Of a stretch of 21,747 nucleotides of DNA, positions 1,263 to 21,747 are shown piece by piece; position 1 is the stretch's first letter, and every line of letters starts with the position of its first letter. Both the position numbers and the translations under genes were made by a program. This DNA is from a virus. The notes beneath the pieces are model-generated. The model was not told the DNA's origin and searched no databases. It worked only from the letters and a program-made list of their open reading frames with translations. The stretch is from positions 1 through 21,747 of IMG/VR virus record IMGVR_UViG_3300028920_000293. One strand, given 5' to 3'.

Positions 1263-2183
1263 TTAATTTGCTACAAAACTTAACTTCTTAGAGCCGCCAG
1301 AGAAGGACAGTCTACCTGAGTTTGCTAAATATAGAGAACTAACTCCTGTATAATTTGCATATATACAATATGTATAATTTTCTGTATCATCAGGTTCAAG
1401 TGGGTCTGGATAATCACCACTACTAACATCATAATCAAGATTCCTATATATACCAATACTATCAGTATCAGAATAACAAAGTCCTACCATAGCAGTAGTA
1501 CTGTCTGCCCACACTACTAAATAATAATCAGTACTGGATATTAATGATGGAGAACCAAAACCAGTGAAAGTTATCCAACCTTCAGATGAAGTTTCTTCAT
1601 CACTACTAGCTACTAGAGAGTAATCTGATTTTTTATATATAGCTGCTTTAATTTCATCTGCATTATGAACTAGATAATTTGAACAGAAGAAATTACAATT
1701 TCCATCAATGGATAACTCATACACATCTATATTATCTTTGATCTCTTCAATAGTTTCTACAGCTTCTTTTTTACTATCAGATGTTAATAAGTAATCTCCA
1801 ATCTTTAAATTTTTAGTTCTTATCCAATTATCATTCACATAAATAAAGTGATTTGAAGTTAACTTTAACTTTTTATTTATAATTAAATATTCTCTTGTGT
1901 TATATTTTTCTATTATTTTAACTTTATTATACTTTAATACTTTTAAATCTTCATCATAAGTTAATATTTCATCTCCTATGGATATATTTGATAATTCCAT
2001 ATTTCCTTTTTTCGTTTTAATTATATTACTTCCTAATAAACAAGGAATTCCTCCTGAATAAGATATATAAGCTACAATAGAATCAAGAGTTCCATTTGCA
2101 GGACACGTAAAGTAACTACCCCTTATATCATCTTCAGTATTCACTTGATTAGCATTTTCATTTTCATTTCCAAATTTTGGCAT
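1263..2183 (-). CDS. Beta-sandwich adhesin-like protein interrupted by an intein-like domain (paralogue 2 of 4)
   Basis: A 306-aa protein made of a 179-aa beta-sandwich host and a 127-aa Hint (intein-type) insertion at residues 48-174. Without the insertion, the host matches the lengths of its three paralogues (185, 192 and 196 aa). It also shares their landmarks: the MPKFG start, the ADEIKAAIY strand right after the insertion, W-I-T-F-T-G-F, the YYLVVWAD strand, and the tail GRLSFSGGSKKL. The insertion falls in a loop before the conserved A-I-Y strand and is absent from the other three copies, so the empty site can be read directly. The ribosome site GAGGAA precedes ATG 2183. The host part is probably a receptor-binding or appendage subunit. 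The insertion may splice out or cleave the protein. Confidence 0.75.
   Translation of the reverse strand: MPKFGNENENANQVNTEDDIRGSYFTCPANGTLDSIVAYISYSGGIPCLLGSNIIKTKKGNMELSNISIGDEILTYDEDLKVLKYNKVKIIEKYNTREYLIINKKLKLTSNHFIYVNDNWIRTKNLKIGDYLLTSDSKKEAVETIEEIKDNIDVYELSIDGNCNFFCSNYLVHNADEIKAAIYKKSDYSLVASSDEETSSEGWITFTGFGSPSLISSTDYYLVVWADSTTAMVGLCYSDTDSIGIYRNLDYDVSSGDYPDPLEPDDTENYTYCIYANYTGVSSLYLANSGRLSFSGGSKKLSFVAN
1662..2042 (-). other. Mini-intein or A-type bacterial intein-like (BIL) domain, no endonuclease
   Basis: Encodes residues 48-174 of the surrounding protein. Block A begins at Cys48 (CLLGSNIIKT) and continues to GDEILTYDED. Block B is LTSNHF, with Thr109 and His112 at the expected T-x-x-H positions. 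Block F is VYELSIDGN followed by NFFCSNYLVHN, ending in His173-Asn174. At 127 aa there is no room for a homing endonuclease. The residue after Asn174 is Ala, not Cys, Ser or Thr, so standard splicing chemistry, which needs a +1 nucleophile, should be blocked. In known families, Cys1 plus His-Asn with a non-nucleophilic +1 residue is typical of A-type BIL domains, which cleave at their ends and splice poorly. A decayed intein is the alternative. Confidence 0.85.
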
Positions 2184-2756: not shown

Positions 2757-3602
2757 CTATATCTCTATATATTCACTTGGATTTTTAGATCCGAATGTTG
2801 CCCCTATCTTCATAACGTAAGTAGTTTCTGAGTTTGGAAGAGTTACTTCTTCAATGGATGCAAATTGATTAGTAGAATCTTCAAAGACATCAGTAAAGTT
2901 AAAGTAACCTAAAGTATTAGATTTATCTTGATTTAGAAAAGATACTTCATAGAAATCCATATTAGAGTATTGATTACCTAAAACAGAACCTATATCATAA
3001 TCAGCATAAACATTATTCTCTGGATCCTCTGGATCATAAGATGTACAGATTCTAACCCACTTTATATATCTAGAAGCATCACTAGACCATTCAGGGTTCA
3101 GATAGAATTGATATTCTATTCCCATGTCTTGTAATGCTATTGGAGTAGTTATCTTAGTGACCATAGCATGAGGTATACCTAAAGGTTGACCTCTTACTCC
3201 AACATCAATTGGAAAGTCATTACCTCCATAATTGACAGTTGCAGTATAACCCATTATCCTTTCATCTGGTAGTATATCATCTCTAGGAGTATGATATGGA
3301 GTTCTAGTTATACCAGAATCCGTTATATAAAATTGATGCCAAGTATCAGATATCTTACCCCAAGCTCTCTGAAATATATAAAACATTGGCTTATCAAAGA
3401 GTACGGGTTTTAATGGATACCAAACAATAGCTCCTAAATCTTTATGAAAACCAACAACATGTGAATTTGACTTTAAACCTATTTCCTTAACATCAGACCA
3501 GACTATTGTGTCCCAATCCACATCTGTATGAATATTATTAGAGTTATCTCTATATATAATAGAAAGATTCTCTCCTATCGCACCAAAGCCTTTTTTTGCC
3601 AT
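2757..3602 (-). CDS. Unrecognised 281-aa protein, probable tail or appendage component
   Basis: A soluble, mixed alpha/beta-looking protein rich in Trp, Tyr and Asp, with no signal peptide, membrane segment or enzyme motif that I recognise. It begins MAKKGFGAIGEN; the FG near the start is mildly reminiscent of the M-x-x-FG start of the four downstream paralogues, but the rest does not match them. It occupies the slot right after the tail-assembly chaperone, where siphoviruses usually encode the tape measure. It cannot be a tape measure: it is far too short and has no long helical stretch. Start ATG 3602 follows an AGGATT ribosome site after the largest gene-free gap of the window. A baseplate, tail-tip or appendage-anchor role is a guess from position. 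Confidence 0.45.
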   Translation of the reverse strand: MAKKGFGAIGENLSIIYRDNSNNIHTDVDWDTIVWSDVKEIGLKSNSHVVGFHKDLGAIVWYPLKPVLFDKPMFYIFQRAWGKISDTWHQFYITDSGITRTPYHTPRDDILPDERIMGYTATVNYGGNDFPIDVGVRGQPLGIPHAMVTKITTPIALQDMGIEYQFYLNPEWSSDASRYIKWVRICTSYDPEDPENNVYADYDIGSVLGNQYSNMDFYEVSFLNQDKSNTLGYFNFTDVFEDSTNQFASIEEVTLPNSETTYVMKIGATFGSKNPSEYIEI

Positions 3603-3636
3603 AATTATTTATAATCCTAATTAAATTTAATCTATT

Positions 3637-3644
3637 TAACATTA
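3637..3644 (-). promoter_or_regulatory. TAATGTTA intergenic motif (copy before the 281-aa gene)
   Basis: Exact minus-strand TAATGTTA in the leader 35 bases upstream of ATG 3602. It is one of five exact copies in gene gaps; the role is unknown. Confidence 0.3.
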
Positions 3645-3680
3645 ATCCTAAAAAAAGAAAAACATAAAAATCATAATTCA

Positions 3681-3728
3681 TTTAATTTTAAGCGGGATTT
3701 AGAAAAGTTCTAGTGCATTAAAATTAAA
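3681..3728. repeat. 11-bp AT-only inverted repeat in the chaperone/281-aa gap
   Basis: The arms TTTAATTTTAA (3681-3691) and TTAAAATTAAA (3718-3728) are perfect inverted copies separated by 26 bases. On the minus strand the structure is followed by T-rich runs. It could be a weak terminator or attenuator separating the chaperone from the downstream genes, or an AT-rich coincidence. The whole gap 3603-3767 holds no convincing gene. Confidence 0.3.
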
Positions 3729-3767
3729 GAGATTAGATTTTATTACATAAGATGACATACATTAATG

Positions 3768-3977
3768 TTATCTACGTCTACCTTTTGACCGAGAAGCTTT
3801 AGCTTTTCTTTCAGCTTCTTTATAAGCCTTATGCTTTTCATTAGCTTCCCATATGATGTGTTGTTCTAGAAAAGAAACTCCAGAAGGATCTTCTTTTCTT
3901 AGTTTTCCTAATTGTTTTGGAGTAACTTTTAGGAATTCACACATCCTTGCTTCTAGCTGGCCTACCCCGGACTCAAC
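3768..3977 (-). CDS. Tail-assembly chaperone, +1 frameshift extension (gpT-like part)
   Basis: A 69-codon reading frame in the +1 frame relative to the upstream 160-aa chaperone, ending at TAA 3770-3768. Frameshifting at TTT (3981-3979) would give a 228-aa fusion (159 + 69). The frame is closed by TGA just upstream (3989-3987), so it has no room for its own start near the overlap; the first in-frame ATG is at 3944 without a clear ribosome site. The encoded segment (GQLEARMCEF, then KQLGKLRKEDP, then a basic SKGRRR end) looks like the helical C-terminal part of phage tail chaperones. This is the classical arrangement of lambda G/GT and its many analogues. The extended product normally bridges tail-tube and tape-measure proteins during tail assembly. 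Confidence 0.75.
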   Translation of the reverse strand, partial: VESGVGQLEARMCEFLKVTPKQLGKLRKEDPSGVSFLEQHIIWEANEKHKAYKEAERKAKASRSKGRRR

Positions 3978-3984
3978 GAAAGGA
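3973..3984 (-). other. Predicted +1 programmed frameshift site
   Basis: The minus strand reads TCC-TTT-CGT-TGA. The zero frame ends at TGA and the +1 frame is closed by TGA at 3989-3987, so the shift must happen in the codons AAA-TCC-TTT-CGT. A Phe tRNA on TTT can slip one base to TTC, a perfect match for its GAA anticodon, while the next codon is CGT, unusual here where AGA dominates, followed by a stop. A GC-rich block (TCCGGGGTAGGCCAGC) lies immediately downstream in otherwise AT-rich DNA and could stimulate the shift. Confidence 0.7.
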
Positions 3985-4455
3985 TTTCAATTCTTCCGCA
4001 TCAATGCCAGAGCCTCTTTGAGTTTCCTTAATGAGCTCCGTTATGAAATTTTGAAGAGTTGTAAAAGATACTTTATCAGTCCAAAACTTGACATCTAAAG
4101 ATTTATCTATACTAAGAGTAGCTGCTAATTCTGGTAACTTTTCATAAATCTTCACCATCTTATCTAAAGATGATGGATCTACTTTACCTTCATATATTGC
4201 AGCTTCAGCTGATAATTTCATTATCACCATCATTTCTTTTTGTGTTGGTCTCTTAGCTTTAATCATCCTTTGAGTCTCCGGAGAAGAGAAGAATGTTACT
4301 TCTAAAACATCCTCCTCATAATCCCTCTCAAGTTTTTCTCTTGTAGCTATTTGCTGGATGATTTTCTTAGTGTCTGATTTTTTCTTTGAATCAATCTTTT
4401 CTTTTAACTCTTTAAAATCTTTTGGTGGCTCATTAGTCTTTTGTTCTTCAGCCAT
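3973..4455 (-). CDS. Tail-assembly chaperone, short form (gpG-like)
   Basis: A 160-aa, highly charged helical protein. Residues 1-45 are Lys/Glu-rich; the middle includes EVTFFSSPETQRMIKAKRP and a helical VVK-like segment. The end (FTTLQNFITELIKETQ) runs into the recoding site at residue 159. Length, helical character, position after the tail-tube genes and the overlapping +1 frame all match tail-assembly chaperones. The protein coats the tape measure during assembly and is absent from the finished particle in known phages. The start ATG 4455 is preceded by a strong GGAGG, consistent with the high level of short form that is normally made. No conserved sequence signature was relied on. Confidence 0.7.
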   Translation of the reverse strand: MAEEQKTNEPPKDFKELKEKIDSKKKSDTKKIIQQIATREKLERDYEEDVLEVTFFSSPETQRMIKAKRPTQKEMMVIMKLSAEAAIYEGKVDPSSLDKMVKIYEKLPELAATLSIDKSLDVKFWTDKVSFTTLQNFITELIKETQRGSGIDAEELKSFR

Positions 4456-4491
4456 TTAATAGTTTTGCCTCCATGAGTTAACTGAATTAAA

Positions 4492-4499
4492 TAACATTA
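4492..4499 (-). promoter_or_regulatory. TAATGTTA intergenic motif (copy before the chaperone)
   Basis: Lies four bases past the stop of tail-tube paralogue 2 and about 37 bases before the chaperone ATG. Confidence 0.3.
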
Positions 4500-4503
4500 A
4501 AAA

Positions 4504-4980
4504 TTACATCAATCCTGGTTCATCAAGAACGTATTTATAACCTAATCCAGCTCTTTGTACGGAAATTGCATATGGATATAATACTGAAAAGTCTATTGAA
4601 CCTTCAGCTATTTCATCTGCTGTTCCTAATGTAAAATCGAAACCAGTTATCTGACAACTTCTTAGATAGAAATGTAGTGAGTTTGCACCACAATTACCAG
4701 ATACACTTACTGGGCATCCTACAATCATGTTATTTACGATTTTACCAACCGCAGTGCTGTGTAACTTACAAGATGTCAAAGATCCTTCTGCTGATAAAGA
4801 ACCTGCTAAGAAAAAGTTACCCTTTTCACCAACTAATTCTTGTTCAGCTGTACCCTTACTGAAGGTTAAAGAAAAATCTGAAATTGCTAAAGTACCATGA
4901 CTCAACTTATTAGCTGCACCACCACTTCCTAAATAAAGGGTTGCATCTTCACCTGTATATATTGTTGGAGTTCCTGCCAT
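4504..4980 (-). CDS. Tail-tube-like protein, paralogue 2
   Basis: A 158-aa beta-rich protein and close paralogue of the gene just upstream. Shared blocks are DFSLTFSKGT then EQELVGEKGN, a LSAEGSLTSCK strand, and FYLRSCQITGFD followed by ADEIAEGSIDF. The MAGT start, the length and the place before the chaperone fit a major tail protein of the siphovirus tube type, whose subunits stack as hexameric rings around the DNA channel. The C-terminal 25 residues are unrelated to the paralogue and are the likely point of specialisation. It is separated from the upstream copy by only two bases. Either both form the tube, or one is a minor ring or cap. Confidence 0.6.
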   Translation of the reverse strand: MAGTPTIYTGEDATLYLGSGGAANKLSHGTLAISDFSLTFSKGTAEQELVGEKGNFFLAGSLSAEGSLTSCKLHSTAVGKIVNNMIVGCPVSVSGNCGANSLHFYLRSCQITGFDFTLGTADEIAEGSIDFSVLYPYAISVQRAGLGYKYVLDEPGLM

Positions 4981-4982
4981 AT

Positions 4983-5468
4983 TTACTCACAATCCATTAT
5001 ACAACCACCATTATAAGTAATATTTTGAGGTAGCATGTGTACAAAATCTATACTTGCTTCTGTAATTGTATCTGCATCACCTATAGATATATCATATCCG
5101 GTGACTTGACAAGATTTTAAATACCAACTAATATATGTTGCATCTGTATCTGTGGATACTGTTCCTGATATAGCTAAATATTGATAATTTTTAGAATCAT
5201 CATCTAAAAGGTTATCTAAAATGTCAGATAAACCACTAGTAGCAAATTTAGCTGCTGTTAATGAACCTTCTAGAGATAGAGCACCTTGATCGAAATAGTT
5301 TCCCCTCTCTCCTATTAAGTCTTGTTCAATAGTTCCTCTACTCAAAGTAAGTGAGAAATCTCCCATACCCCAAGTTGAGTGAGTTCTACTTGTAAAATCG
5401 GTAGCACCACCAGCTGAGTGAGCTGATAGATAAACTTTTGAATTTCTACCTGTTACTGTTCCTGCCAT
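4983..5468 (-). CDS. Tail-tube-like protein, paralogue 1
   Basis: A 161-aa protein with the MAGT start and the blocks GDFSLTLSRGT, EQDLIGERGN, LSLEGSLTAAK and WYLKSCQVTGYD followed by ADTITEASIDF, all matched in the next gene. These patterned beta strands fit a tube-forming major tail protein. An AGGTAA site precedes ATG 5468, after a 46-base gap carrying the TAATGTTA motif. The tandem pair must descend from a duplication, but the copies have diverged widely in their loops (residues 85-115 here). Which copy builds the main tube cannot be decided from sequence. Confidence 0.65.
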   Translation of the reverse strand: MAGTVTGRNSKVYLSAHSAGGATDFTSRTHSTWGMGDFSLTLSRGTIEQDLIGERGNYFDQGALSLEGSLTAAKFATSGLSDILDNLLDDDSKNYQYLAISGTVSTDTDATYISWYLKSCQVTGYDISIGDADTITEASIDFVHMLPQNITYNGGCIMDCE

Positions 5469-5509
5469 ATTAATTTACCTATTTTGGTCACATATTTAAC
5501 ATACTAATT

Positions 5510-5517
5510 TAACATTA
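5510..5517 (-). promoter_or_regulatory. TAATGTTA motif formed on the tail-terminator stop
   Basis: The first three bases are the TAA stop of the 132-aa gene; the rest leads into the gap before tail-tube paralogue 1. Confidence 0.3.
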
Positions 5518-5913
5518 ATCTTCATGGAATTTAGTATAACTATAATTCTGAGTTTTTCTATATATTCCTAATTCATCATCATACATATCATTATCAGATT
5601 CCTTTCTACAGGTTCCCGATATAAGAACTTTCACCACTTCATCAGCTATTTGAATTGTCTCTAATCTACTTGTTTTAGACATTATATCTATTTGGATGTT
5701 AAATTCTTCTCTTCTTAGTTTAGAGCCAGCTGTGGATGTACCATATCCAAGATAACCATAATCAGTTCCAGATGTTTGATTTAATATTATACAAGGAAAA
5801 TCATCTTTAAATTTAGTCCAACCAACTTTTACTTTATTTATTGGTACTAAAGATGTTATTGCTGAGCTACTTATTATATATTTTCTTATGTCTGTTAATG
5901 CTGTTAAACTCAT
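5515..5913 (-). CDS. Tail terminator / tail completion protein
   Basis: A 132-aa protein with a helical start (LTALTDIRKYI), then FPCIILNQTSG and a long beta strand EEFNIQIDIMSKTS followed by a helix (ETIQIADEVVKVLI). This order (short helix, P-x-I-x-L strand, strand with an I-x-I-x-x-x-S pattern, helix) is characteristic of the small tail-terminator/completion family (HK97 gp10 neighbourhood, lambda gpU-like, DUF3168-like). It overlaps the upstream gp10-like gene by four bases (ATGA). Its position between the gp10-like gene and the tail tube is the usual one. It would cap the tube and join it to the head connector. Confidence 0.65.
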   Translation of the reverse strand: MSLTALTDIRKYIISSSAITSLVPINKVKVGWTKFKDDFPCIILNQTSGTDYGYLGYGTSTAGSKLRREEFNIQIDIMSKTSRLETIQIADEVVKVLISGTCRKESDNDMYDDELGIYRKTQNYSYTKFHED

Positions 5914-6398: not shown

Positions 6399-6715
6399 GT
6401 TATCAATTTAAGTAATGCAGTCTTATGATGAAAAGAACTATCAATAATTACTTCCTTTACTCTATAATTCTCTCCATTATAGGTAGCTTGGCTGTCTCTA
6501 TCTATACTTGATGATGACAAACAAAAACACTTATATCTAACATCATCATAAAGACCAGAATTATCTATCCTCTCAGATGCTGATAATGGTGACATTCTAC
6601 ATTTGGTAGGTGTACTAGAAGTAGTATATGTATATGTCCATTCACCAATTACATTTTGAGAGGATGTTCTAGTTCTTAAATAGATGTTTGTATTTAAAAG
6701 TTCTTCATAGGTCAT
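6395..6715 (-). CDS. Head closure / head-tail joining protein (SPP1 gp16-like)
   Basis: A 106-aa beta-barrel-type protein. The order GEWTYTYTT, a central M-S-P-L-SASER, V-x-Y-x-C-F and then YNGENYRVKEVI is typical of the phage head-tail joining family (SPP1 gp16/HK97 gp9-like), in which a small beta barrel closes the connector channel. Start ATG 6715 follows an AGAGGAT site and overlaps the HNH gene by four bases. In known phages it binds the adaptor and forms the stopper that keeps DNA in the head. Confidence 0.7.
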   Translation of the reverse strand: MTYEELLNTNIYLRTRTSSQNVIGEWTYTYTTSSTPTKCRMSPLSASERIDNSGLYDDVRYKCFCLSSSSIDRDSQATYNGENYRVKEVIIDSSFHHKTALLKLIT

Positions 6716-6942
6716 AATTTAATCCTCTTAGTGTGGACATTATAGTGACATTCACTACATAGAACTATAAGATTTGATTCATCGTGAGAACCTCCCATAC
6801 GAACAGGTCTCTTATGATGTAGATGTAAATCTCCTTTAGCGTAATTTCCACAATACTGACATATATATCCAGCTTTCTTAAACATAAACCATCTTAAATT
6901 ATTCCAATTCTCTGGATATAAAGGACTAGGACGATAAGACAT
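6712..6942 (-). CDS. HNH nuclease
   Basis: A 76-aa protein containing a complete HNH fold: Cys28-x2-Cys31, the HLHHKRP motif (residues 40-46), Asn57 and Cys62-x2-Cys65-His66. The two Cys pairs would hold a structural zinc, and His42/His43 with Asn57 and the later His would form the metal-dependent active site. Phages often encode HNH proteins beside the terminase, where they help packaging. Here it sits between the adaptor and head-closure genes and overlaps both, which suits either a co-opted packaging factor or a small homing endonuclease. All key residues are present, so activity is likely. Confidence 0.85.
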   Translation of the reverse strand: MSYRPSPLYPENWNNLRWFMFKKAGYICQYCGNYAKGDLHLHHKRPVRMGGSHDESNLIVLCSECHYNVHTKRIKL

Positions 6943-8300: not shown

Positions 8301-9275
8301 TTACTTGTGGTAGACTATACAACCAGCTGACTCATTAAGAACATCAGTTCCAAATCTCATTGTTAATGATATACCAATAAGATCGTGTATTGGATCATCA
8401 TATTGCTCAATGGTCAAGTCTCTTCTCATGCAGATTACACCAAGATCATTCTTTGAGAATGCTATTGCTGTAACATCTGAACCTGCTGTAGTGTCATCCC
8501 AAGTTGGTGATGCGGCATCAGTTGCTGAACAAGCATATGGTTTTAGTCCCATGATTGTTTTTCCAACATCTCCTTGCCTAAGAGCACCAGGAGTTCCTGC
8601 ATATGATACATATGCTAGGTTTGAATCTTGTAAGAGATAACCTTCTGCAGTTGGATGTAACAATAGAGTATCTGGCATGTAATTGCATTTTTTGATTTTA
8701 GATATAGCTAATGGTATATCACTGATTGCTATATGTGGTCCGGCTGGGTTTAGGGTATTTGTAGATATTGCACTTGTACCTTGTAGCATTTGATAAAGAA
8801 CTTGTCTATTTAGAGCATTCTCCATTCTTGCTCCAGCTTTCTTAAGTTCTAATTCTACAACGTCAAATAGTGCATCTTCAATGAGTTCATTTGTTATTAA
8901 AGGTCTTACACCATATTTATCTATGGTGATATCTTGCTTTGAATATTCTTGAGTGTCTATTTCTATTTTTGCTCCTTCTGCAATTTTGTTAGCATAAGTT
9001 CCATCCTCACCTTTTACAAATCTTACTGAATAAGAATTTGTATTAATTATAGGCATAATTTCTCTTACACATTTTACAGGTTCTGTTCCCTCAATTACTG
9101 TTTTATAGACTTCTTCTTGAACTAAAGTTGAATCATTTATAGCTGTTCTTTCTGATTGTAATAATTTATGGATATCTTTACCAACTGTATTAATGAAAGA
9201 TTCTTTATTTAACAATCTAGTTCTTTCTGAATTTCCTGCAAATCCAAATTCTAAGAGTTTTGTTAGCTTTGACAT
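8301..9275 (-). CDS. Major capsid protein B (HK97 fold)
   Basis: A 324-aa protein and full-length paralogue of the capsid protein at 12154. Shared landmarks are the start MSKLTKLLE, AGNS, IAEGA, ITNELIED, the long helix ELELKKAGARMENALNRQ, PAG-x-H-x-AI-x-D, ATDAAS, R-x-D-(I/L), DPIHDL, MRFG and AGC near the end. The spine helix (residues 145-170), an A-domain with a late beta strand, and the genes around it (protease/scaffold and decoration upstream, connectors downstream) make the HK97-type major capsid assignment strong. There is no long N-terminal delta domain, so a separate scaffold is expected; the upstream fused protease-scaffold supplies it. The AGGAAA ribosome site and AT-rich leader fit high expression. 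Confidence 0.85.
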   Translation of the reverse strand: MSKLTKLLEFGFAGNSERTRLLNKESFINTVGKDIHKLLQSERTAINDSTLVQEEVYKTVIEGTEPVKCVREIMPIINTNSYSVRFVKGEDGTYANKIAEGAKIEIDTQEYSKQDITIDKYGVRPLITNELIEDALFDVVELELKKAGARMENALNRQVLYQMLQGTSAISTNTLNPAGPHIAISDIPLAISKIKKCNYMPDTLLLHPTAEGYLLQDSNLAYVSYAGTPGALRQGDVGKTIMGLKPYACSATDAASPTWDDTTAGSDVTAIAFSKNDLGVICMRRDLTIEQYDDPIHDLIGISLTMRFGTDVLNESAGCIVYHK

Positions 9276-9792: not shown

Positions 9793-11064
9793 TTAATCGT
9801 TGAAATAAACCATGCCTTTTTCTACCTTGATATCCCCTTCTAGCTCGAATTCTTCTTCTTCAACCACCTTAGTTTTTGGCTCCCCTTTTTCCTCAATTTT
9901 TGGAAGTTCGGGTTTAGATTCTAACTGTTTTTTAAGAGCCTCTATTTGATCATCTCTTGATTTTATAGCAAGTTTAAGATCTTCGTCTTTCTCATTTGCT
10001 GAAAGTTTGTCTGCAATTGCTGATAGTTTCTCAATTACTTCATCAAAGGCTTTCTTAGGAAAAGAGTAACTCTCATCTTCTGATTTCTCTTCTTCCTCTT
10101 CTTCTGATTTGTCCTCAGACATTTCTTCCTCAGGAATCTCTTCCTCAGGTTCTTCAGGGATCTCTTCTCCTGGTTCCTCTGGTATGTTTTCTTCTGCTTT
10201 CATCATCTCATTTATTAAACCTTCTAAAACTGAAAACTTTCTATCAAGATCCTCTAATCGATCTTCAATAGACTTAGTTTCCTCTTCCACAGGTTCTTGA
10301 GATTCTTCTGTTTTCTCCTCAACTTCCTCAGTCTTCTCTTCTACTTCTTCAACTTCTTCTTCTTCTTCTTCTGATTCCTGAACAATTTCTTTTGGTTCTT
10401 CCTTAGGTTCTTCAGCCTTTGTGACCTTCTCTATTTTTTTCTTAGTCATTATATCATTATCTAAGTTACATTCCTTACATACAGATTTAGATACAATAAT
10501 AAAACCTGAATCTTGATTTACAGGTTCAGAACAAACAGATACTTCAAATATGTTTATTTTATCTAAGATAGTAATGCACTTTTTATCATCACATTCCTTA
10601 TGATCTAATAAAACTTCACAACCAATTGAGAATGCATTTATCTCTCCATTTATCATAGCTTCCCAAATTGCATCCGCAGTTTTGATATCAGAACGAATCT
10701 CAGCTACTATAAAGAGACCCTTCTCATCAACATGAGTTTTATATTTACCATAAGATTCAATGATTTTGCCTATCTGTATGTTCTTATGAACTAACATTAA
10801 ATTAGAATAATGTGGATCCTCTAAAAGAGATTTTATACCTTCTTTAAGAGTTTCTATGGGTATAAATTGATCCTCCTTATCTATTACTGCAACTGAAGCA
10901 TATCCAGCTATTATTCTTTTATTCTCAGATTTTTGAACTATATTAAGATTGCCTACAAGATCCATACGAATGGATTTCTTATCTTTTTCTTCATTTAACA
11001 TACTCTCTGCAATTTTCTGCAAAAATCTGGCAACCTCTTCTTTTTTTATATTAACTTTTTCCAT
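9793..11064 (-). CDS. Prohead protease B fused to acidic scaffold (S78-like)
   Basis: A 423-aa two-part protein. Residues 30-195 form a prohead-protease-like domain: IIAGYASVAV with an acidic turn, His93 in LMLVHKNIQIGKI, the Ser146 nucleophile in NAFSIG, and Glu174 in INIFEVSVCSEP as the likely third residue. Residues 205-423 are a highly acidic, helical scaffold with runs of Glu, IPEEP repeats at 293-313, and a coiled-coil region 335-382. In this family the protease cleaves the scaffold and itself during capsid maturation, and fusion to the scaffold is common. Met206 (MTKKKIEK) could mark a nested scaffold-only start, but it has no clear ribosome site. Confidence 0.75.
   Translation of the reverse strand: MEKVNIKKEEVARFLQKIAESMLNEEKDKKSIRMDLVGNLNIVQKSENKRIIAGYASVAVIDKEDQFIPIETLKEGIKSLLEDPHYSNLMLVHKNIQIGKIIESYGKYKTHVDEKGLFIVAEIRSDIKTADAIWEAMINGEINAFSIGCEVLLDHKECDDKKCITILDKINIFEVSVCSEPVNQDSGFIIVSKSVCKECNLDNDIMTKKKIEKVTKAEEPKEEPKEIVQESEEEEEEVEEVEEKTEEVEEKTEESQEPVEEETKSIEDRLEDLDRKFSVLEGLINEMMKAEENIPEEPGEEIPEEPEEEIPEEEMSEDKSEEEEEEKSEDESYSFPKKAFDEVIEKLSAIADKLSANEKDEDLKLAIKSRDDQIEALKKQLESKPELPKIEEKGEPKTKVVEEEEFELEGDIKVEKGMVYFND
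10126..10188 (-). repeat. In-frame IPEEP repeat coding the acidic scaffold
   Basis: Residues 293-313 contain three copies of (E)IPEEP-type units; the DNA repeats CCTGAGGAAGA-type blocks. It is low-complexity and possibly slippage-prone, embedded in the scaffold part of the protease gene. Confidence 0.6.
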
Positions 11065-12153: not shown

Positions 12154-13092
12154 TTACTTAGTTAGAATTCTACAACCAGCGTTTGGATTGAATACTCCAA
12201 TTCCAAATCTCATCTTAGCAACTAATTTTGTTAAATCATGGACTGGATCCTTTATTTGATTTGTATTTATATCCTCTCTCATCACTATTGTGGCAAAATG
12301 CATGGAATCAAAAACTAAACCACCGTAATGACTAGCTGCATCTGTACCATCCCAATATTCAGATGTTGTTCCATCTGTTTTTGCATCTAATACAGAGACA
12401 TTTAGATTTATTAATTCATGCTTTCCATCAGTAACATCTCCAAGATTAGTTTCTCCTAAAAGATAAGCGTAACAACCAGGTTCAACAAATACTGAATCAG
12501 CATTCCAACCAAAATCATTAACTTCTCTCATTGCCCTTCCAACATCAGTAATGGCAAAGTGACCTCCAGCCGGATCTATATCATTAGTCATACTGACAGT
12601 ATTTAAAATAGATGTGATTGCTTCTTGATTTAGTTTATTCTCTAATTTAGCACCTGCTCTCTTTAATTCTAATTCAATCCAATCAAATTTTTCATCTTCA
12701 ATTAATTCATTAGTAATATAAGGTGCAACTGCAGCTTTTTTTATTGTAACGTTAGTTTCATCATAAGTAATACTATCCTGATTTATTGCTGCTCCCTCTG
12801 CTATATATTCAGCATACTGACCAGATGGATCTGTGTTAGCTACTATTCTACAAGTATTACTTTCTGTTTTAATTATTGGTAATAGTTTTCTTGCTGATTC
12901 TCTTCTTTCAGCTCCTTGAACTATTGCTGCTATTATTTCTCTATAAACAAGATCAGTTTCACCTGTCTCACTTAATAGAAGTTGTTTTTCAGATTTATCA
13001 AAATATTTATTAAATGAATTATCGTCCATTAGACTACGTCTACCGCTGTTTCCAGCAACAGAGTACTCTAGAAGTTTCGTTAATTTAGACAT
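12154..13092 (-). CDS. Major capsid protein A (HK97 fold)
   Basis: A 312-aa protein with all the landmarks of capsid protein B: MSKLTKLLE, AGNS, YIAEGAAI, YITNELIED, the spine helix ELELKRAGAKLENKLNQ, PAGGHFAITD, a late YLLGETNL, ATDAAS equivalent (TDAASHYGG), REDI, DPVHDL, MRFG and a terminal AGC. Insertions and deletions lie mostly in the A-domain loops (about residues 215-250). The protein is intact, with no stop or frame damage, so it is not a decaying duplicate. It sits in its own cassette with protease A and small genes. Together with B it could form mixed capsids, or serve as penton or alternative shell protein; neither is shown. Confidence 0.85.
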   Translation of the reverse strand: MSKLTKLLEYSVAGNSGRRSLMDDNSFNKYFDKSEKQLLLSETGETDLVYREIIAAIVQGAERRESARKLLPIIKTESNTCRIVANTDPSGQYAEYIAEGAAINQDSITYDETNVTIKKAAVAPYITNELIEDEKFDWIELELKRAGAKLENKLNQEAITSILNTVSMTNDIDPAGGHFAITDVGRAMREVNDFGWNADSVFVEPGCYAYLLGETNLGDVTDGKHELINLNVSVLDAKTDGTTSEYWDGTDAASHYGGLVFDSMHFATIVMREDINTNQIKDPVHDLTKLVAKMRFGIGVFNPNAGCRILTK

Positions 13093-13773: not shown

Positions 13774-13932
13774 TTAACCCTCAAGGTACCTTATAGTCTT
13801 GCCTTCTTCAGTTTCTAATGATAAATAATCTTTAAGATCACAAGATGCATTCCATTTACAGTGATAACATTCTTTTGGGTAATTTTTACATTTATTATAA
13901 AATGAACATATAATTATTTTATCTTTTTTCAT
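13774..13932 (-). CDS. 52-aa Cys-rich protein (small ORF)
   Basis: Found by hand translation. It starts MKKDKIIICSFYNKCKNYP and continues with ECYHC and NASCDL, then a short acidic tail ending RYLEG. Five Cys with spacing C-x5-C-x6-C-x2-C-x5-C (residues 9, 15, 22, 25 and 31), plus His24, suggest a metal-binding finger. The ATG overlaps the stop of protease A (TAATG) and the stop lies three bases before the next gene, so it is embedded in the coupled chain. Too short for confident family naming. Confidence 0.6.
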   Translation of the reverse strand: MKKDKIIICSFYNKCKNYPKECYHCKWNASCDLKDYLSLETEEGKTIRYLEG

Positions 13933-14462
13933 TATTCATATCCTGGACCTGGACCAGATTCTATAATTCTGCTGGATGGGCATGCTGGTGTAGTGACTAC
14001 TGCAGCTCCTATATAAGTTATGTCAGTAGCATATCTTTTATTATCTTCAGCATTCCATATATCCTGAGTTGTGATTTCAACGGATAACCAATTTATTAGA
14101 CCTGCATCTATAAGTGCTATTGCATCCTTAGCTGCAGTTGTTATTGGAGCAATATATAAATCTCCTCTAACAGATCCTTTTTTGAAATAACAGTTTTTAA
14201 CATAACCGACTCTTGATAATACTTCATAAGAGTGATCTAGATTAAGATAATTAGATTCCCACTTATCAGCTGTCTCAGAAATATTTTCTTCCGTATATAC
14301 TATTGGTGAAGCTGACATTGAATCCGTATATTCTCCAGGTGTTAATAGTATAGCATCCGAATAAACTCTAAAGTCTGTGGATTTTTGTATGATTTTATTA
14401 TCATACTCAAACTTTATCATCGGTGAGTGGAGGCTTCTTCCCTTGATCTTCTTCATTTTCAT
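13932..14462 (-). CDS. Prohead protease A (S78-like)
   Basis: A 176-aa protease without a scaffold tail. His77 lies in NLDHSYEVLSRVGYV, the Ser127 nucleophile in INWLSVEIT, and Asp147 in TDITYIGAAVV is a plausible third residue; RGDLYIAPITTAAKDA matches the strand-helix unit before the nucleophile in the S78/U35-like prohead protease family. It would trim capsid A or internal proteins during maturation. It overlaps the 132-aa coiled-coil gene by 56 bases if it starts at ATG 14462. ATG 14456 and ATG 14420 are alternatives, and no start has a strong ribosome site. It is clearly different from protease B in length and loops. Confidence 0.7.
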   Translation of the reverse strand: MKMKKIKGRSLHSPMIKFEYDNKIIQKSTDFRVYSDAILLTPGEYTDSMSASPIVYTEENISETADKWESNYLNLDHSYEVLSRVGYVKNCYFKKGSVRGDLYIAPITTAAKDAIALIDAGLINWLSVEITTQDIWNAEDNKRYATDITYIGAAVVTTPACPSSRIIESGPGPGYE

Positions 14463-14805
14463 TTTTAATTATCTCATATATACTTTCTTCAACATCCATC
14501 CAATCTTCGGATTGCTCCTTTATTTCTTCTAAGATTGAATTCAACTTTTCTATTTCTTCTTTTTTCTTATTAAACATGTAGTCATAATAATTAACTGTTT
14601 CTTTTCTCTTCTTTATTTCCTCATTAAGATATTCTATCTCTTCCTTTTCATCACTTATAGACTGTTTGAGGTTTGTTAATTTTTCATTAAGGTCATTTAT
14701 CTTGTTTTTTAACTGCTCTTCTTCCGAAGATAGTTTTTTTACAGATGCTTGTAATTTTTTATATCTTTTATTAATTTCCTTTAATAAAGTTTTTTTAGTA
14801 TCCAT
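14407..14805 (-). CDS. 132-aa coiled-coil protein, possible scaffold
   Basis: An almost fully helical protein with a heptad-rich body (KLQASVKKLSSEEEQLKNKI, NEKLTNLKQSI, EIEYLNEEIKKRKETV) and an acidic C-terminus. I start it at ATG 14805 because GGAG lies seven bases upstream; the in-frame TTG at 14811 is a poor alternative. It overlaps the fibre gene (11 bases from 14805) and protease A. Its position just before protease A suggests the scaffold missing from capsid set A, or a fibre trimer/anchor. Both are inference. Confidence 0.5.
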   Translation of the reverse strand: MDTKKTLLKEINKRYKKLQASVKKLSSEEEQLKNKINDLNEKLTNLKQSISDEKEEIEYLNEEIKKRKETVNYYDYMFNKKKEEIEKLNSILEEIKEQSEDWMDVEESIYEIIKNENEEDQGKKPPLTDDKV

Positions 14806-17383
14806 CCTCAAGCTCCTCTAAATCCTTATCAGGTAAAGACTTAACAACCAATGATATTAATTCCTCTAGTTGAGATTCTATATTCTTAACTTCCTTATTA
14901 TCACTTTTTATTTTCATTAATTCATCAATTCTATTATTTATTTCATTAAACTTCTTTTTATCTTCAGTAACTTTTAATATGTTTTCAATGTGCTCTTTAA
15001 GGACATCTAATTGTTTATTATTACTTAAGATGCTATTATTTAGTTTCTCATTGTCCTTATCTTGATTATCTAACTTGCCATATAACTCTTCTTGTAACTT
15101 AACTAAGATATCATATATGTCCACTACTTGTTGCATTATTACTTCCTTATTTCTGTAAGTCCAAGGTGATTTTCTACCACCAGCAACCACATATTTAGTT
15201 CCACCTCCACCACCACCGTATATCTCTATTTGAGAAGATATACCATCAAGTTGAGATGAAATCCAAGTAGTTTGAGTTGAGATATAAGAAACCATATCTT
15301 GAACTGCAGTTCCACCGCCTGCTGACCAGAATGTATCTCCATGAGTTATTATTGCAGAACTTGGAAACCACCTACCTTGAGAAGATGCCCATGTTATTTG
15401 AGATGATATGTAACTTACATATGGAGTCACATCCGTACCTGCAGCTGACCAATTACTGTCACCATGTACTATAATTGATGATGATGGGAAAGAATTTGAA
15501 GATAAGAAATTTAATTGAGAGGATATAAAATTAGATCCTCCACCACCGCCTCCTGCACCAGTAGTCCAGTTTCCATCTCCATGTGTTATTATTGCTGAAG
15601 AAGGAAATATATTTATAACTTGAGATGATATCCAATCTATAACGGAAGTGTCGTCAGTTAAAGTCCTACTAACAACAGTCCATATATCTGCTGCTGAATG
15701 AGTAGATAAGTTGCTTATATTTGAAGATTTCCAATAAGAGTCACCATGATCTATTATTGCAGATGATGGATATGTTTGGCTTGAAATATAATCTGTATCA
15801 TATCCTAATTTTACAGTATTAGATGAGATAGCTAATAATTGTGAAGATATCCATACTGAACCTGGTCCTCCACTACTACCCCCTACTCCAGTTGTCCAAT
15901 GATCGTCACCATGATTTATGATATCTCCAGATGGGAATATCTGAGATGAGATATAGTCAACTTCAGCCTCTAATTCATCTAAATCTGCTGGAGTGGCAAA
16001 TCCAATAGCCGTTGTCCAATTGCTATCTCCATGAGATTCAACACCATCTATTTGAGATGATACTCCTACTATTTGAGAAGAAATAAAATTTAATTGAGAA
16101 GATATAAAGGCTGTTCCTCCTCCTGCACCTCCGACTCCTGTTGTCCATGAACCTGCACCGTGATTAGATGTTAATTCTGTGTCCACATTAGTTGGAATAT
16201 CATTGATATTAGAAGATTTCCAATAATTGTTTCCGTGACTTATTATACTTCCACTAGCAAATGATTGAGATGATATGTAATCTATATCATTGTTAATATT
16301 AAATATTTGAGATGATACATAGTCCATCTCAGTTTCTAACTCATTTAAATCTGAAGCAGTTACAAATCCAACTGCAGTGATCCAATTGTCATCTCCATGA
16401 GCTATTATATCTCCACTTGGGAATATACTTCCTGATATGTAATCAGTATCCTTATTTATTTCTACTGTATTAGAGGATATAGCAGTTAGTTGTGAGGATA
16501 TCCAAGAAGATCCACCAAGACCTTCCCATGAACCTCCACCATGAGTTGAAGTTAATTGTGTATCAACATCATCAGCACTATGTGTAGAGAATCCAACAGC
16601 TGTAATCCAAGCTTCATCTCCTCTTCTTATTATGTCTCCAGATGCAAATACATCTCCTACTTGTGAAGAGACGTAATCCATTTCAGATTCTAATTCTTCT
16701 AAATCAGCTGTGGTAGTAAATCCAGTCGCAGTAATCCATTCAGAATCACCGTGAGTTTCAACTCCTTTTATCTGAGAAGATATTCCTATTATCTGAGAAG
16801 ATATGAAGTTGAGTTGAGATGATATAAAGTCAGAACCTGGTCCAGATCCTCCTCCTACACCTGTGGTCCAATTTCCTGCACCATGTTGGGTAGTTAAATA
16901 ATTATCAATTGCATCTGATGAGGGTAATGCATGAGCTAATGATGAAATGGCTAACAATTGAGAGGAAATCCACACTGAACCTGGACCTCCACCGCCACCA
17001 GTACCAGTAACCCAACCATCATCTCCATGGTTAATAATATCACCACTTGGAAATGATTGTGATGAAATATAATCTATTTCATTTTTAAGATAATTTATTT
17101 GAGATGAGACTGACTCTGTATAATAAATAAGATTTTGTTGAACAGCATTAGGAGCAGCTTTACCACTTATCATTATAGCTACAACATCAGCTATCATTTC
17201 ATCTGATGTTACAGTTAATTTATAGAATCCATCACTAATTTCTGATGGACTGTTAGTTGTCCAATCAAAGGAATTTCCATCCTTTGAAATCTGTGATGAT
17301 AAGGTTAATCCTCTTAATTCATTACCAGAACAATCAGCCATAATAAAAACTAATTGTTTCTCGATTCCCTTCTCAAACGCCAT
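14795..17383 (-). CDS. 862-aa repetitive fibre protein
   Basis: Residues 1-90 form an Ig-like/BppU-like N-terminal beta domain (KQLVFIMADCSGNELRG, then GFYKLTVTSDE). Residues 92-720 are repeats: 22 SSQ motifs in heptads such as ISSQLNF-ISSQIIG-ISSQIKG, and 14 modules H/R-G-x3-W (HGDDGW, HGAGNW, HGDSEW and others), plus poly-Gly linkers. Residues 160-260 and 405-505 repeat as larger units. Residues 745-850 form a coiled coil. The heptads place Ile and Leu at a/d, so a trimeric, polar-surfaced fibre shaft broken by small turns is likely. It is probably an adhesive fibre or spike and overlaps the 788-aa gene by 11 bases. Relatives of the H-G-D-x-x-W pattern with STHSAADIW occur in phage fibre/collagen-like proteins. 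Confidence 0.7.
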   Translation of the reverse strand: MAFEKGIEKQLVFIMADCSGNELRGLTLSSQISKDGNSFDWTTNSPSEISDGFYKLTVTSDEMIADVVAIMISGKAAPNAVQQNLIYYTESVSSQINYLKNEIDYISSQSFPSGDIINHGDDGWVTGTGGGGGPGSVWISSQLLAISSLAHALPSSDAIDNYLTTQHGAGNWTTGVGGGSGPGSDFISSQLNFISSQIIGISSQIKGVETHGDSEWITATGFTTTADLEELESEMDYVSSQVGDVFASGDIIRRGDEAWITAVGFSTHSADDVDTQLTSTHGGGSWEGLGGSSWISSQLTAISSNTVEINKDTDYISGSIFPSGDIIAHGDDNWITAVGFVTASDLNELETEMDYVSSQIFNINNDIDYISSQSFASGSIISHGNNYWKSSNINDIPTNVDTELTSNHGAGSWTTGVGGAGGGTAFISSQLNFISSQIVGVSSQIDGVESHGDSNWTTAIGFATPADLDELEAEVDYISSQIFPSGDIINHGDDHWTTGVGGSSGGPGSVWISSQLLAISSNTVKLGYDTDYISSQTYPSSAIIDHGDSYWKSSNISNLSTHSAADIWTVVSRTLTDDTSVIDWISSQVINIFPSSAIITHGDGNWTTGAGGGGGGSNFISSQLNFLSSNSFPSSSIIVHGDSNWSAAGTDVTPYVSYISSQITWASSQGRWFPSSAIITHGDTFWSAGGGTAVQDMVSYISTQTTWISSQLDGISSQIEIYGGGGGGTKYVVAGGRKSPWTYRNKEVIMQQVVDIYDILVKLQEELYGKLDNQDKDNEKLNNSILSNNKQLDVLKEHIENILKVTEDKKKFNEINNRIDELMKIKSDNKEVKNIESQLEELISLVVKSLPDKDLEELEDGY
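15224..17110 (-). repeat. ISSQ / HGDxxW repeat region of the fibre gene
   Basis: Codes residues 92-720: heptad stretches built on I-S-S-Q and intervening H-G-x3-W modules. The two longest similar units (about residues 160-260 and 405-505) show segmental duplication. Codons vary between units, so copies are protein-level more than DNA-level repeats. Confidence 0.75.
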
Positions 17384-20090: not shown

Positions 20091-21747
20091 TCATTCACTT
20101 TTATTTAATTTTTTAATTTTAGATGCTACATTCTTAAACTTTTTTATTAATAATTCCTTAGACTTACTTAATTCATCTAATCTTTGATCTTTAGCTTCTA
20201 TGGTTTTCTCTAATAAATCTATTTGATATTTATATTTATTAACATCATTATTTATTTCTTTCTCGTATTCCTTGCTACTTAACTTTATATTATTCATCTC
20301 ATCTTTCTGATTATTTATGATATCATATAAATCATTAAGTTTACTCTTAGTTTCATTTAATGTATTCTGTAGTTTTTGTTTATCTTGAGAAATAGATTTA
20401 TTCTTTTCTTCTATGCTCTTCATGTTATTTTCCATATTCTCTAACTTAACTGAATATTTGACTACCTCTTTGTCAGATGAACCTTTCTCTGAAATTAATT
20501 TTTTAACTTCTTTATTTAAATTATTTACTTCTTCTTGTAATTTCTTGTTTATGGATTGAGCTTTCCTTAATTCCTCATCCTTCTTCTTGTCCTCTTCTTC
20601 TTTTGGTTTATCTTCCTTTGGTTTCTCTGGTTTTTCTTCTGGTTCATCCTTAGGCTTTTTATCATCTGATTTAGTCATCTTTGGACCATAACCAAACATA
20701 GCTCTTATCTCATCTTCCGTGAAAGGTTTGCCTTCTTCAGGTCTATAACCTCTTAAGAGATTGCCTAACCATTTTGCCTTTACAGCTTCATCAGCATCTG
20801 TCACTGAATTAAATCTCATCTTCACAATATCAGGATCATACTTATAACTTTCTAATATTGGATTAAATAATTCATTTCTCATCTGATTAGCTATCTTTAA
20901 TTGAAAAGACCTAATCATTCTCTCATACATCATCTGTTTAACTGTGGCAGTATTACCTTGTATGGCTAATTTATTATTTCTACGAGTTAAATATATATGA
21001 TTTGGTACGTTTAAACAATGAACTTTACCTTCATAATATATTTTCTCACACATTTCTGGTGTGATAATAACATAATCTTTTTCAGATAAATCTATTCTAA
21101 CTCTCCACATACCAATTCTATTTTCTCTCTTATCTTCAGAAAATATAATATGTGCTCTATAACCACACTTAATAGCTATTTCTAATATATCGTCAGCTAA
21201 TTGTTTAGAAGTTGTAGTATATTCACAAGTATTTCTACCTTCTCTAGTATCATAAGTTCCATCTCCATCTATTGCAGAGAATAATAAATATTTTAGATAT
21301 TCAGGTTGATATTCTAAATATTGTCTTGGTATATGTCTATTATAACAATTATCTCCAAAATCTTTAAGAAAATCATATAACTCTTTATTATACCAATGCC
21401 ATTCGTATCCTTTATCTTCAGAATATGATTCTTTAAATTCTGGATAATTAGAATATATAACCTCTCTCATTCTATGAGCTGAATCTTCCTTCTTTTGAGA
21501 CAATCTACAATAAGGTTCTTCAGAATTAATACTACCTTCAGATACAAAATAACCTATAAATTTCATTAAGTCTATAATAGGTTGTTTTGGTGGAAAATCT
21601 TGTTTATAATCTTCTGGTTTTACTTTAGATTTAATAGCCCAATGTGAGTTTGAATTATATATCTCTTCAGCCGTAACTATTTCCCAATTTTCTTTAGTAG
21701 AAGTTGGATTTTTATTTACAAACATTCTATGATTTGGTGTAACTAAC
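20091..21747 (-). CDS. Portal protein, C-terminal part, with intein (partial at right edge)
   Basis: The frame is open to the window edge; upstream of the first ATG (21725) it reads LVTPNHR, intein block B, so ATG 21725 is not the real start. Numbering from that Met, residues 1-258 are intein. The host part resumes at Thr259 (TATVKQMMYERMIRSFQLKI). Its helices, and the segment EDEIRAMFGYGPK (residues 338-350), match the C-terminal end of phage portal proteins, where the helix before it lines the channel clip or stem. Residues 351-390 are a Lys/Glu/Pro-rich linker and 390-544 a long coiled coil, an unusual extension for a portal. The portal role rests on this segment and on position before protease and capsid genes. 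Confidence 0.65.
   Translation of the reverse strand, partial: LVTPNHRMFVNKNPTSTKENWEIVTAEEIYNSNSHWAIKSKVKPEDYKQDFPPKQPIIDLMKFIGYFVSEGSINSEEPYCRLSQKKEDSAHRMREVIYSNYPEFKESYSEDKGYEWHWYNKELYDFLKDFGDNCYNRHIPRQYLEYQPEYLKYLLFSAIDGDGTYDTREGRNTCEYTTTSKQLADDILEIAIKCGYRAHIIFSEDKRENRIGMWRVRIDLSEKDYVIITPEMCEKIYYEGKVHCLNVPNHIYLTRRNNKLAIQGNTATVKQMMYERMIRSFQLKIANQMRNELFNPILESYKYDPDIVKMRFNSVTDADEAVKAKWLGNLLRGYRPEEGKPFTEDEIRAMFGYGPKMTKSDDKKPKDEPEEKPEKPKEDKPKEEEDKKKDEELRKAQSINKKLQEEVNNLNKEVKKLISEKGSSDKEVVKYSVKLENMENNMKSIEEKNKSISQDKQKLQNTLNETKSKLNDLYDIINNQKDEMNNIKLSSKEYEKEINNDVNKYKYQIDLLEKTIEAKDQRLDELSKSKELLIKKFKNVASKIKKLNKSE
20952..21747 (-). other. LAGLIDADG homing-endonuclease intein in the portal gene (partial)
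   Basis: Only the C-terminal part is in the window. Visible blocks are block B (TPNHRM), LAGLIDADG motif 1 (FIGYFVSEGS, residues 56-65 from Met 21725), motif 2 (LLFSAIDGDGTY, residues 147-158), and the C-terminal block VHCLNVPNHIYL through LAIQGN. It ends at Asn258, preceded by Gly instead of the usual His, and is followed by Thr259, a normal +1 nucleophile. Both Asp/Glu endonuclease positions are present, so the homing enzyme may be active. The intein starts outside the window, so Cys/Ser1 is not seen. Confidence 0.88.

Follow-up and report, generated by a model that had tools for sequence, protein, structure and literature searches.

The DNA analysed here, hereafter the window, is the complete 21,747-base IMG/VR virus record IMGVR_UViG_3300028920_000293, whose source is an uncultured virus of archaeal type. 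Two capsid-type proteins of this virus match PHROG major head proteins; for the one encoded at 8301-9275, the nearest annotated phages are haloarchaeal tailed viruses, at no more than 30% identity, and with the same protein 37 sister-virus loci were recovered, with protein identities of up to 85%. The two major capsid-type proteins (8301-9275 and 12154-13092, minus strand) are 38.5% identical to each other, and the second capsid gene is present in several sister viruses too. Protease-type proteins are likewise duplicated in the window (9793-11064 and 13932-14462, minus strand), and the members of a tail-tube-like pair (4504-4980 and 4983-5468, minus strand) are 40% identical. Between the portal and capsid genes sits the gene for an 862-aa protein with many degenerate YISSQ and HGDxxW repeats (14795-17383, minus strand), and a small free-standing HNH endonuclease gene (6712-6942, minus strand) lies amid the head-tail genes. 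A capsid protein sharing 52% identity with the virus's own is encoded on a contig of a MAG titled Planctomycetota (L053; QNBZ01000001.1); this contig seems identical to that of another IMG/VR record (L025) and is probably viral DNA that ended up in the MAG bin.

Along the minus strand, the tail-tube-like genes are followed by four tandem paralogues in the order p4 (2198-2755), p3 (1263-2183), p2 (670-1248), and p1 (78-668), and then by a gene beginning MAFTDTKSAGNIIASADWNDFVDF. The paralogues are probably tail-associated, and p3 is a probable virion surface protein. As the preliminary description had recognized, p3 alone carries a Hint domain, and p1, p2, and p4 are without one. The 306-aa p3 ORF is divided into an N-extein of 47 aa (2043-2183, minus strand), a Hint domain of 127 aa spanning Cys48 to Asn174 (1662-2042, minus strand; 127 codons), and a C-extein of 132 aa (1263-1661, minus strand). 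Paralogue alignment identifies the two exteins as the first part and the remainder of a single paralogue domain, and the Hint itself, which lacks an endonuclease, is delimited by matches to Pfam, PDB, and a viral Hint (L174). Its boundaries had been given exactly in the preliminary description, together with Cys1, T-x-x-H, and a His-Asn end followed by Ala, all of which are present.

The Pfam PT-HINT family matches the domain at E=1e-9 (39.2 bits against a cut-off of 27.7), which places it in the Hint superfamily, and Intein_splicing matches at 6e-7 (29.8 bits, under its 35.8 cut-off). Sequence matches in the PDB to the Spl DnaX mini-intein (9e-6) and to the BIL domain 2lwy (1e-4) both end at the His-Asn of p3; a PDB fold search on the predicted model gave no match at E<0.001. 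These sequence matches put the identification of the domain well outside what chance would give. Each of the five core catalytic positions is retained, namely, the putative thioester nucleophile Cys1 (Cys48, TGT; 2040-2042, minus strand), which Pro47 precedes; the Thr and His of block B (T-S-N-H, Thr109-Ser-Asn-His112; 1848-1859, minus strand), found in all compared relatives; and the block G pair His173-Asn174 (1662-1667, minus strand), proposed to carry out Asn cyclization. Two block F positions depart from the norm: block F position 13 (the role of F:13 being taken from PMC4031507) is Cys163 where His is usual (1695-1697, minus strand), and F:4 is Glu where Asp is usual. The +1 residue, Ala175 (GCA; 1659-1661, minus strand), is a non-nucleophile.

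The reading frame is open across the AT-rich insert (21% GC), and synonymous codon use of the insert matches that of the virus (z=1.2). A recent import as the source of the low GC was considered and rejected, as third-position GC and codon use both match the virus. That p3 is an assembly chimera is barely conceivable: the insertion is known from a single contig, yet the sequences on its two sides form parts of a single paralogue domain, the frame runs through without a break, and its codons are used as elsewhere on the contig.

Removal of the 127 aa leaves a protein of 179 aa that can be aligned with p1, p2, and p4 and with homologues in the sister viruses. The joined extein is closest to p4 (32% identity, 7e-18), followed by p2 (28%, 3e-8) and p1 (26%, 2e-6), and Hint-less homologues occur in the sister-virus loci L006/L069, L070, and L071, with part of one in L066; one copy of the Hint insertion is known. 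The empty site that the preliminary description had called exact (SSGDECKCAIY versus GGIP-ADEIKAAIY) does reflect a clean insertion, although, given the distance between the paralogues and the varying length of the loop, its position can be fixed only to within 1-3 residues. In the extein family alignment, this length-variable loop is the least conserved stretch nearby, with pairwise identities of 0.03-0.14 at the insertion site versus 0.4-0.78 at the best flanking-strand positions. The residue aligned with +1 in nine extein homologues is D, Y, G, E, or a gap, and in none of them C, S, or T. AlphaFold predictions from 5-sequence alignments, of low confidence (pLDDT 45), let the insertion site fall between two strands. 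The preliminary description, by which a cut would fall in the midst of the beta sandwich, was overstated on this point, since the loop is variable and has a predicted strand on either side. By the model and the alignments, the Hint is predicted to sit in a surface hairpin loop, where a cut would open the hairpin turn, and a nick or a rejoined bond at this loop may be tolerable.

Inteins of classes 1, 2, and 3 all pass via a branched intermediate that involves a +1 Cys, Ser, or Thr (PMC4031507). There is no +1 nucleophile in the p3 Hint, and therefore the usual branched intermediate cannot form. To this extent the preliminary description was right that Ala at +1 blocks standard splicing; the block does not extend to ligation, which is possible by aminolysis (PMC4031507). 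Of the class 1 features, Cys48 and Asn174 are present; a +1 Cys, Ser, or Thr and insertion at a conserved host-protein site are absent. Class 3 inteins have Cys at F:4 and no Cys1 (the WCT signature), and class 3 splicing was rejected for the p3 Hint, which has Glu at F:4 together with Cys1. A fully splicing intein of class 1, 2, or 3 would accord with the open frame and the clean join, but Ala at +1 and Glu rather than the class 3 Cys at F:4 contradict it at the sequence level, making it very improbable. The comparison with class 1 mini-inteins such as Spl DnaX (PDB 7cfv) is instructive in both directions: they share with p3 the Hint fold as judged by sequence, the F-G spacing, and a clean removal that would restore the host protein, whereas they have Cys, Ser, or Thr at +1 and lie in a conserved active site, in place of the Ala and the unconserved loop of a structural protein found here.

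The inteins inspected in this virus and its sister viruses all keep a +1 Cys, Ser, or Thr, and the p3 Hint is the exception. They occur in TerL (L005 and L040, each with +1 T), in portal genes (L015, with two in one gene at 3069-5861; L021; and the window's own), in a connector-like gene (L022, +1 S), in a protease (L021, +1 C), and in a ligase-like gene (L024, +1 C). The window's portal-like ORF (20091-21747, minus strand) ends at the contig end and holds the C-terminal part of a LAGLIDADG intein, with TPNH as block B and the end AIQGN-T (+1 T). The TerL intein at L005:1076-3511 has no Cys1, and Trp, Cys, and Thr were read by eye at its class 3 positions.

A Hint reference set, compiled from phages and from 294-392 genomes belonging to a single bacterial phylum, falls into three groups: inteins, with an F-to-G spacing of 10-11 and C, S, or T at +1; A-type BILs, with a spacing of at least 12; and mini-Hints, with a spacing of 10 and Lys at +1. 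For a few rows of the set, this grouping does not hold or the motif pattern gave a wrong reading. The p3 Hint resembles A-type BILs in its His-Asn end, in the lack of an obligatory +1 nucleophile, and in its location in a variable region of a non-conserved protein. Its spacing of 10, however, is that of inteins and of the HN-K Hints and falls short of the A-type value, the classical A-type arrangement (HTYxVGxxxxLVHN) being longer. Topology tests (AU) are compatible with grouping the p3 Hint with BILs (p=0.148) and with inteins (p=0.121), and the trees place it with neither; in a larger tree, it and the main cellular intein group are separated by a starred branch. Because the spacing does not fit and phylogeny gives no placement, the p3 Hint is not filed as an A-type BIL, and of the assignment first made to that type only the His-Asn end and the missing +1 nucleophile stand. 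By analogy, it should nonetheless work like a type A BIL. BILs have no +1 nucleophile, occupy variable-region sites, and undergo cleavage and, in part, splicing by aminolysis (PMC4031507, PMC7765530, PMC7664689). For the BIL of M. magnetotacticum, splicing is reported to become efficient once +1 is a nucleophile (PMC4031507).

Scans of viral contigs with the single proteins P0001, Hint, and p4 gave no matches, and one with p5 turned up no separate locus; with a degenerate scan for Hint relatives, 80 loci on viral contigs were obtained. The best full-length matches to the p3 Hint are viral Hints (L174-L181 and L183) at 31-40% identity and E down to 2e-24, with L174 40% identical over 127 aa. 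These domains (PF07591, with a partial match to PHROG 21587) are, like the p3 Hint, 127-128 aa long, without endonuclease, part of viral proteins, and equipped with Cys1, T-x-x-H, a VHN end, and a non-nucleophile at +1. They differ in position and in detail: the HN-K mini-Hints lie at or near the C-terminus, ending HNYFAEGYLVHN and then Lys, followed by a stop or few residues (one to nine residues after Asn), and have His at F:13, whereas the p3 Hint is internal, with 132 residues after Asn, Ala at +1, and Cys at F:13. The preliminary description had pointed to the +1 residue of homologues as a check on special processing, and the absence of Ser, Thr, and Cys there in the nearest relatives leaves that idea standing. 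More distant Hints (20-32% identity) on virion-type proteins are also C-terminal, in contrast to that of p3: those of the putative tail protein XUE01657 of Afa-NA1 (HN-M, with Met at +1), the phage NCTB protein SBV38301 (HN-A, with Ala at +1), and Erwinia phage Alexandra gp112 (HN end, Thr at +1).

Other arrangements were encountered among the viral loci. The ORF at L182:2486-3802 (IMGVR_UViG_3300025267_003074), which lies near an S74-type tail fibre gene, opens with a Hint that lacks all but the last part of block A (MRKYIKNIKVGDYV...FLVHN-KGNKW) and ends in the missing 13-aa block A (CFSGDTWIEVYNG, then stop), a gapless circularly permuted Hint in the order I_C, extein, I_N. This block order led us to reject L182 as a second internal HN-K Hint; if the permuted Hint is active, a cyclic or head-to-tail ligated protein could result. 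Two or three consecutive Hint-like domains per viral protein occur at L188:698-2908, L198:1082-3376, L214:690-2543, and L237:1064-2938. The last Hint of each of these arrays is C-terminal and ends HN-Lys, and the first is a weak match; the first two Hints of L188 abut, Cys1 of the second serving as the +1 residue of the one before it.

The main rival to an active element is a decayed, inactive one, that is, a mini-intein whose +1 nucleophile was lost or never present, p3 being left at full length or dispensable given its three paralogues. We regard this as a serious though minority possibility. The intein-type F-to-G spacing, the prevalence of inteins in the sister viruses, and the redundancy provided by the paralogues all agree with it, as does the replacement of the F:13 His, the F:4 Asp, and several positions that are invariant in relatives. 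Among 22 positions that do not vary in eight relatives, the p3 Hint differs at 9, and among 54 that do not vary in six viral ones, it differs at 28; near block G, HP has become HF, A has become C, and G has become N. Yet the remaining 13 of the 22 include all five catalytic positions, the frame is intact, the best relatives are not inteins with a +1 nucleophile, and, unlike an intein site, the variable loop is nucleophile-free in all homologues. From its sequence, the p3 Hint seems less a broken intein than an element of a known type in a new arrangement, because the domains closest to it are self-cutting ones carried by other viral surface proteins.

We thus lean, with little more than even confidence, toward a Hint that self-processes without standard splicing and would yield a mixture of nicked and rejoined p3. 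This reading is favoured because the residues for both half-reactions are present and because type A BIL chemistry is published. In type A BILs, an N-terminal thioester, Asn cyclization, and attack by the freed amine give some ligation, with cleavage products dominating (PMC4031507). After translation of p3, Cys48 would form a thioester with Pro47, and Asn174 would cyclize and release the C-part, with cleavage at one or both junctions. In a fraction of the product, the freed Ala175 amine would attack the thioester and rejoin the flanks (GGIP-ADEIK), as in type A BILs, so that the end product would be a nicked or rejoined 179-aa p3 matching its paralogues. The Cys at F:13 and the Glu at F:4 may slow Asn cyclization, and the F:13 His is dispensable in some inteins (PMC4031507). 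Also weighing against this reading are the position of the relatives, C-terminal in most cases and not internal, and the trees, which give the domain no clear place. That the Hint is active, which junctions it would cut, how much product would be ligated and how much nicked, and any advantage gained are what we infer. In engineered inteins, Pro at -1 can hinder the N-S acyl shift. Pro47 as proof of inactivity was nevertheless rejected, since natural inteins of the reference set carry Pro at -1.

Alternatively, p3 may carry a one-sided autoprotease or thioester device, in which the N-part is transferred to a host or virion nucleophile in a Hog-like manner, or the Asn step alone frees the C-part. 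p3 does have the residues for step 1 and, independently, those for step 3, and in the relatives that end HN-Lys-stop, C-terminal cleavage would free Lys only, so that an N-terminal reaction, or none, would matter. We consider such a device unlikely for p3, whose N-extein of just 47 aa ends in Pro and belongs to the p3 fold instead of being an adhesin in its own right, for which no acceptor is known, and in which both catalytic halves are retained. The earlier suggestion of a maturation switch or a surface-joining device is speculation.

Should the p3 Hint be active, the locus would present a Hint devoid of a +1 nucleophile in the interior of a structural-type protein of a virus, with Hint-less paralogues as natural controls, and the purpose of BIL-like domains would become directly testable. 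Nucleophile-less Hints are a repeated feature of viral proteins that bear PKD or InlB modules (a PKD domain in the L177 protein, InlB B-repeats in that of L179), a group for which our literature search, which was not exhaustive, found no earlier report. Viruses may, as a tentative and rather doubtful generalization, widely equip surface proteins with nucleophile-less Hints for processing or covalent linking; here, an internal-loop Hint would open, rejoin, or attach one adhesin-like protein, sparing its three paralogues.
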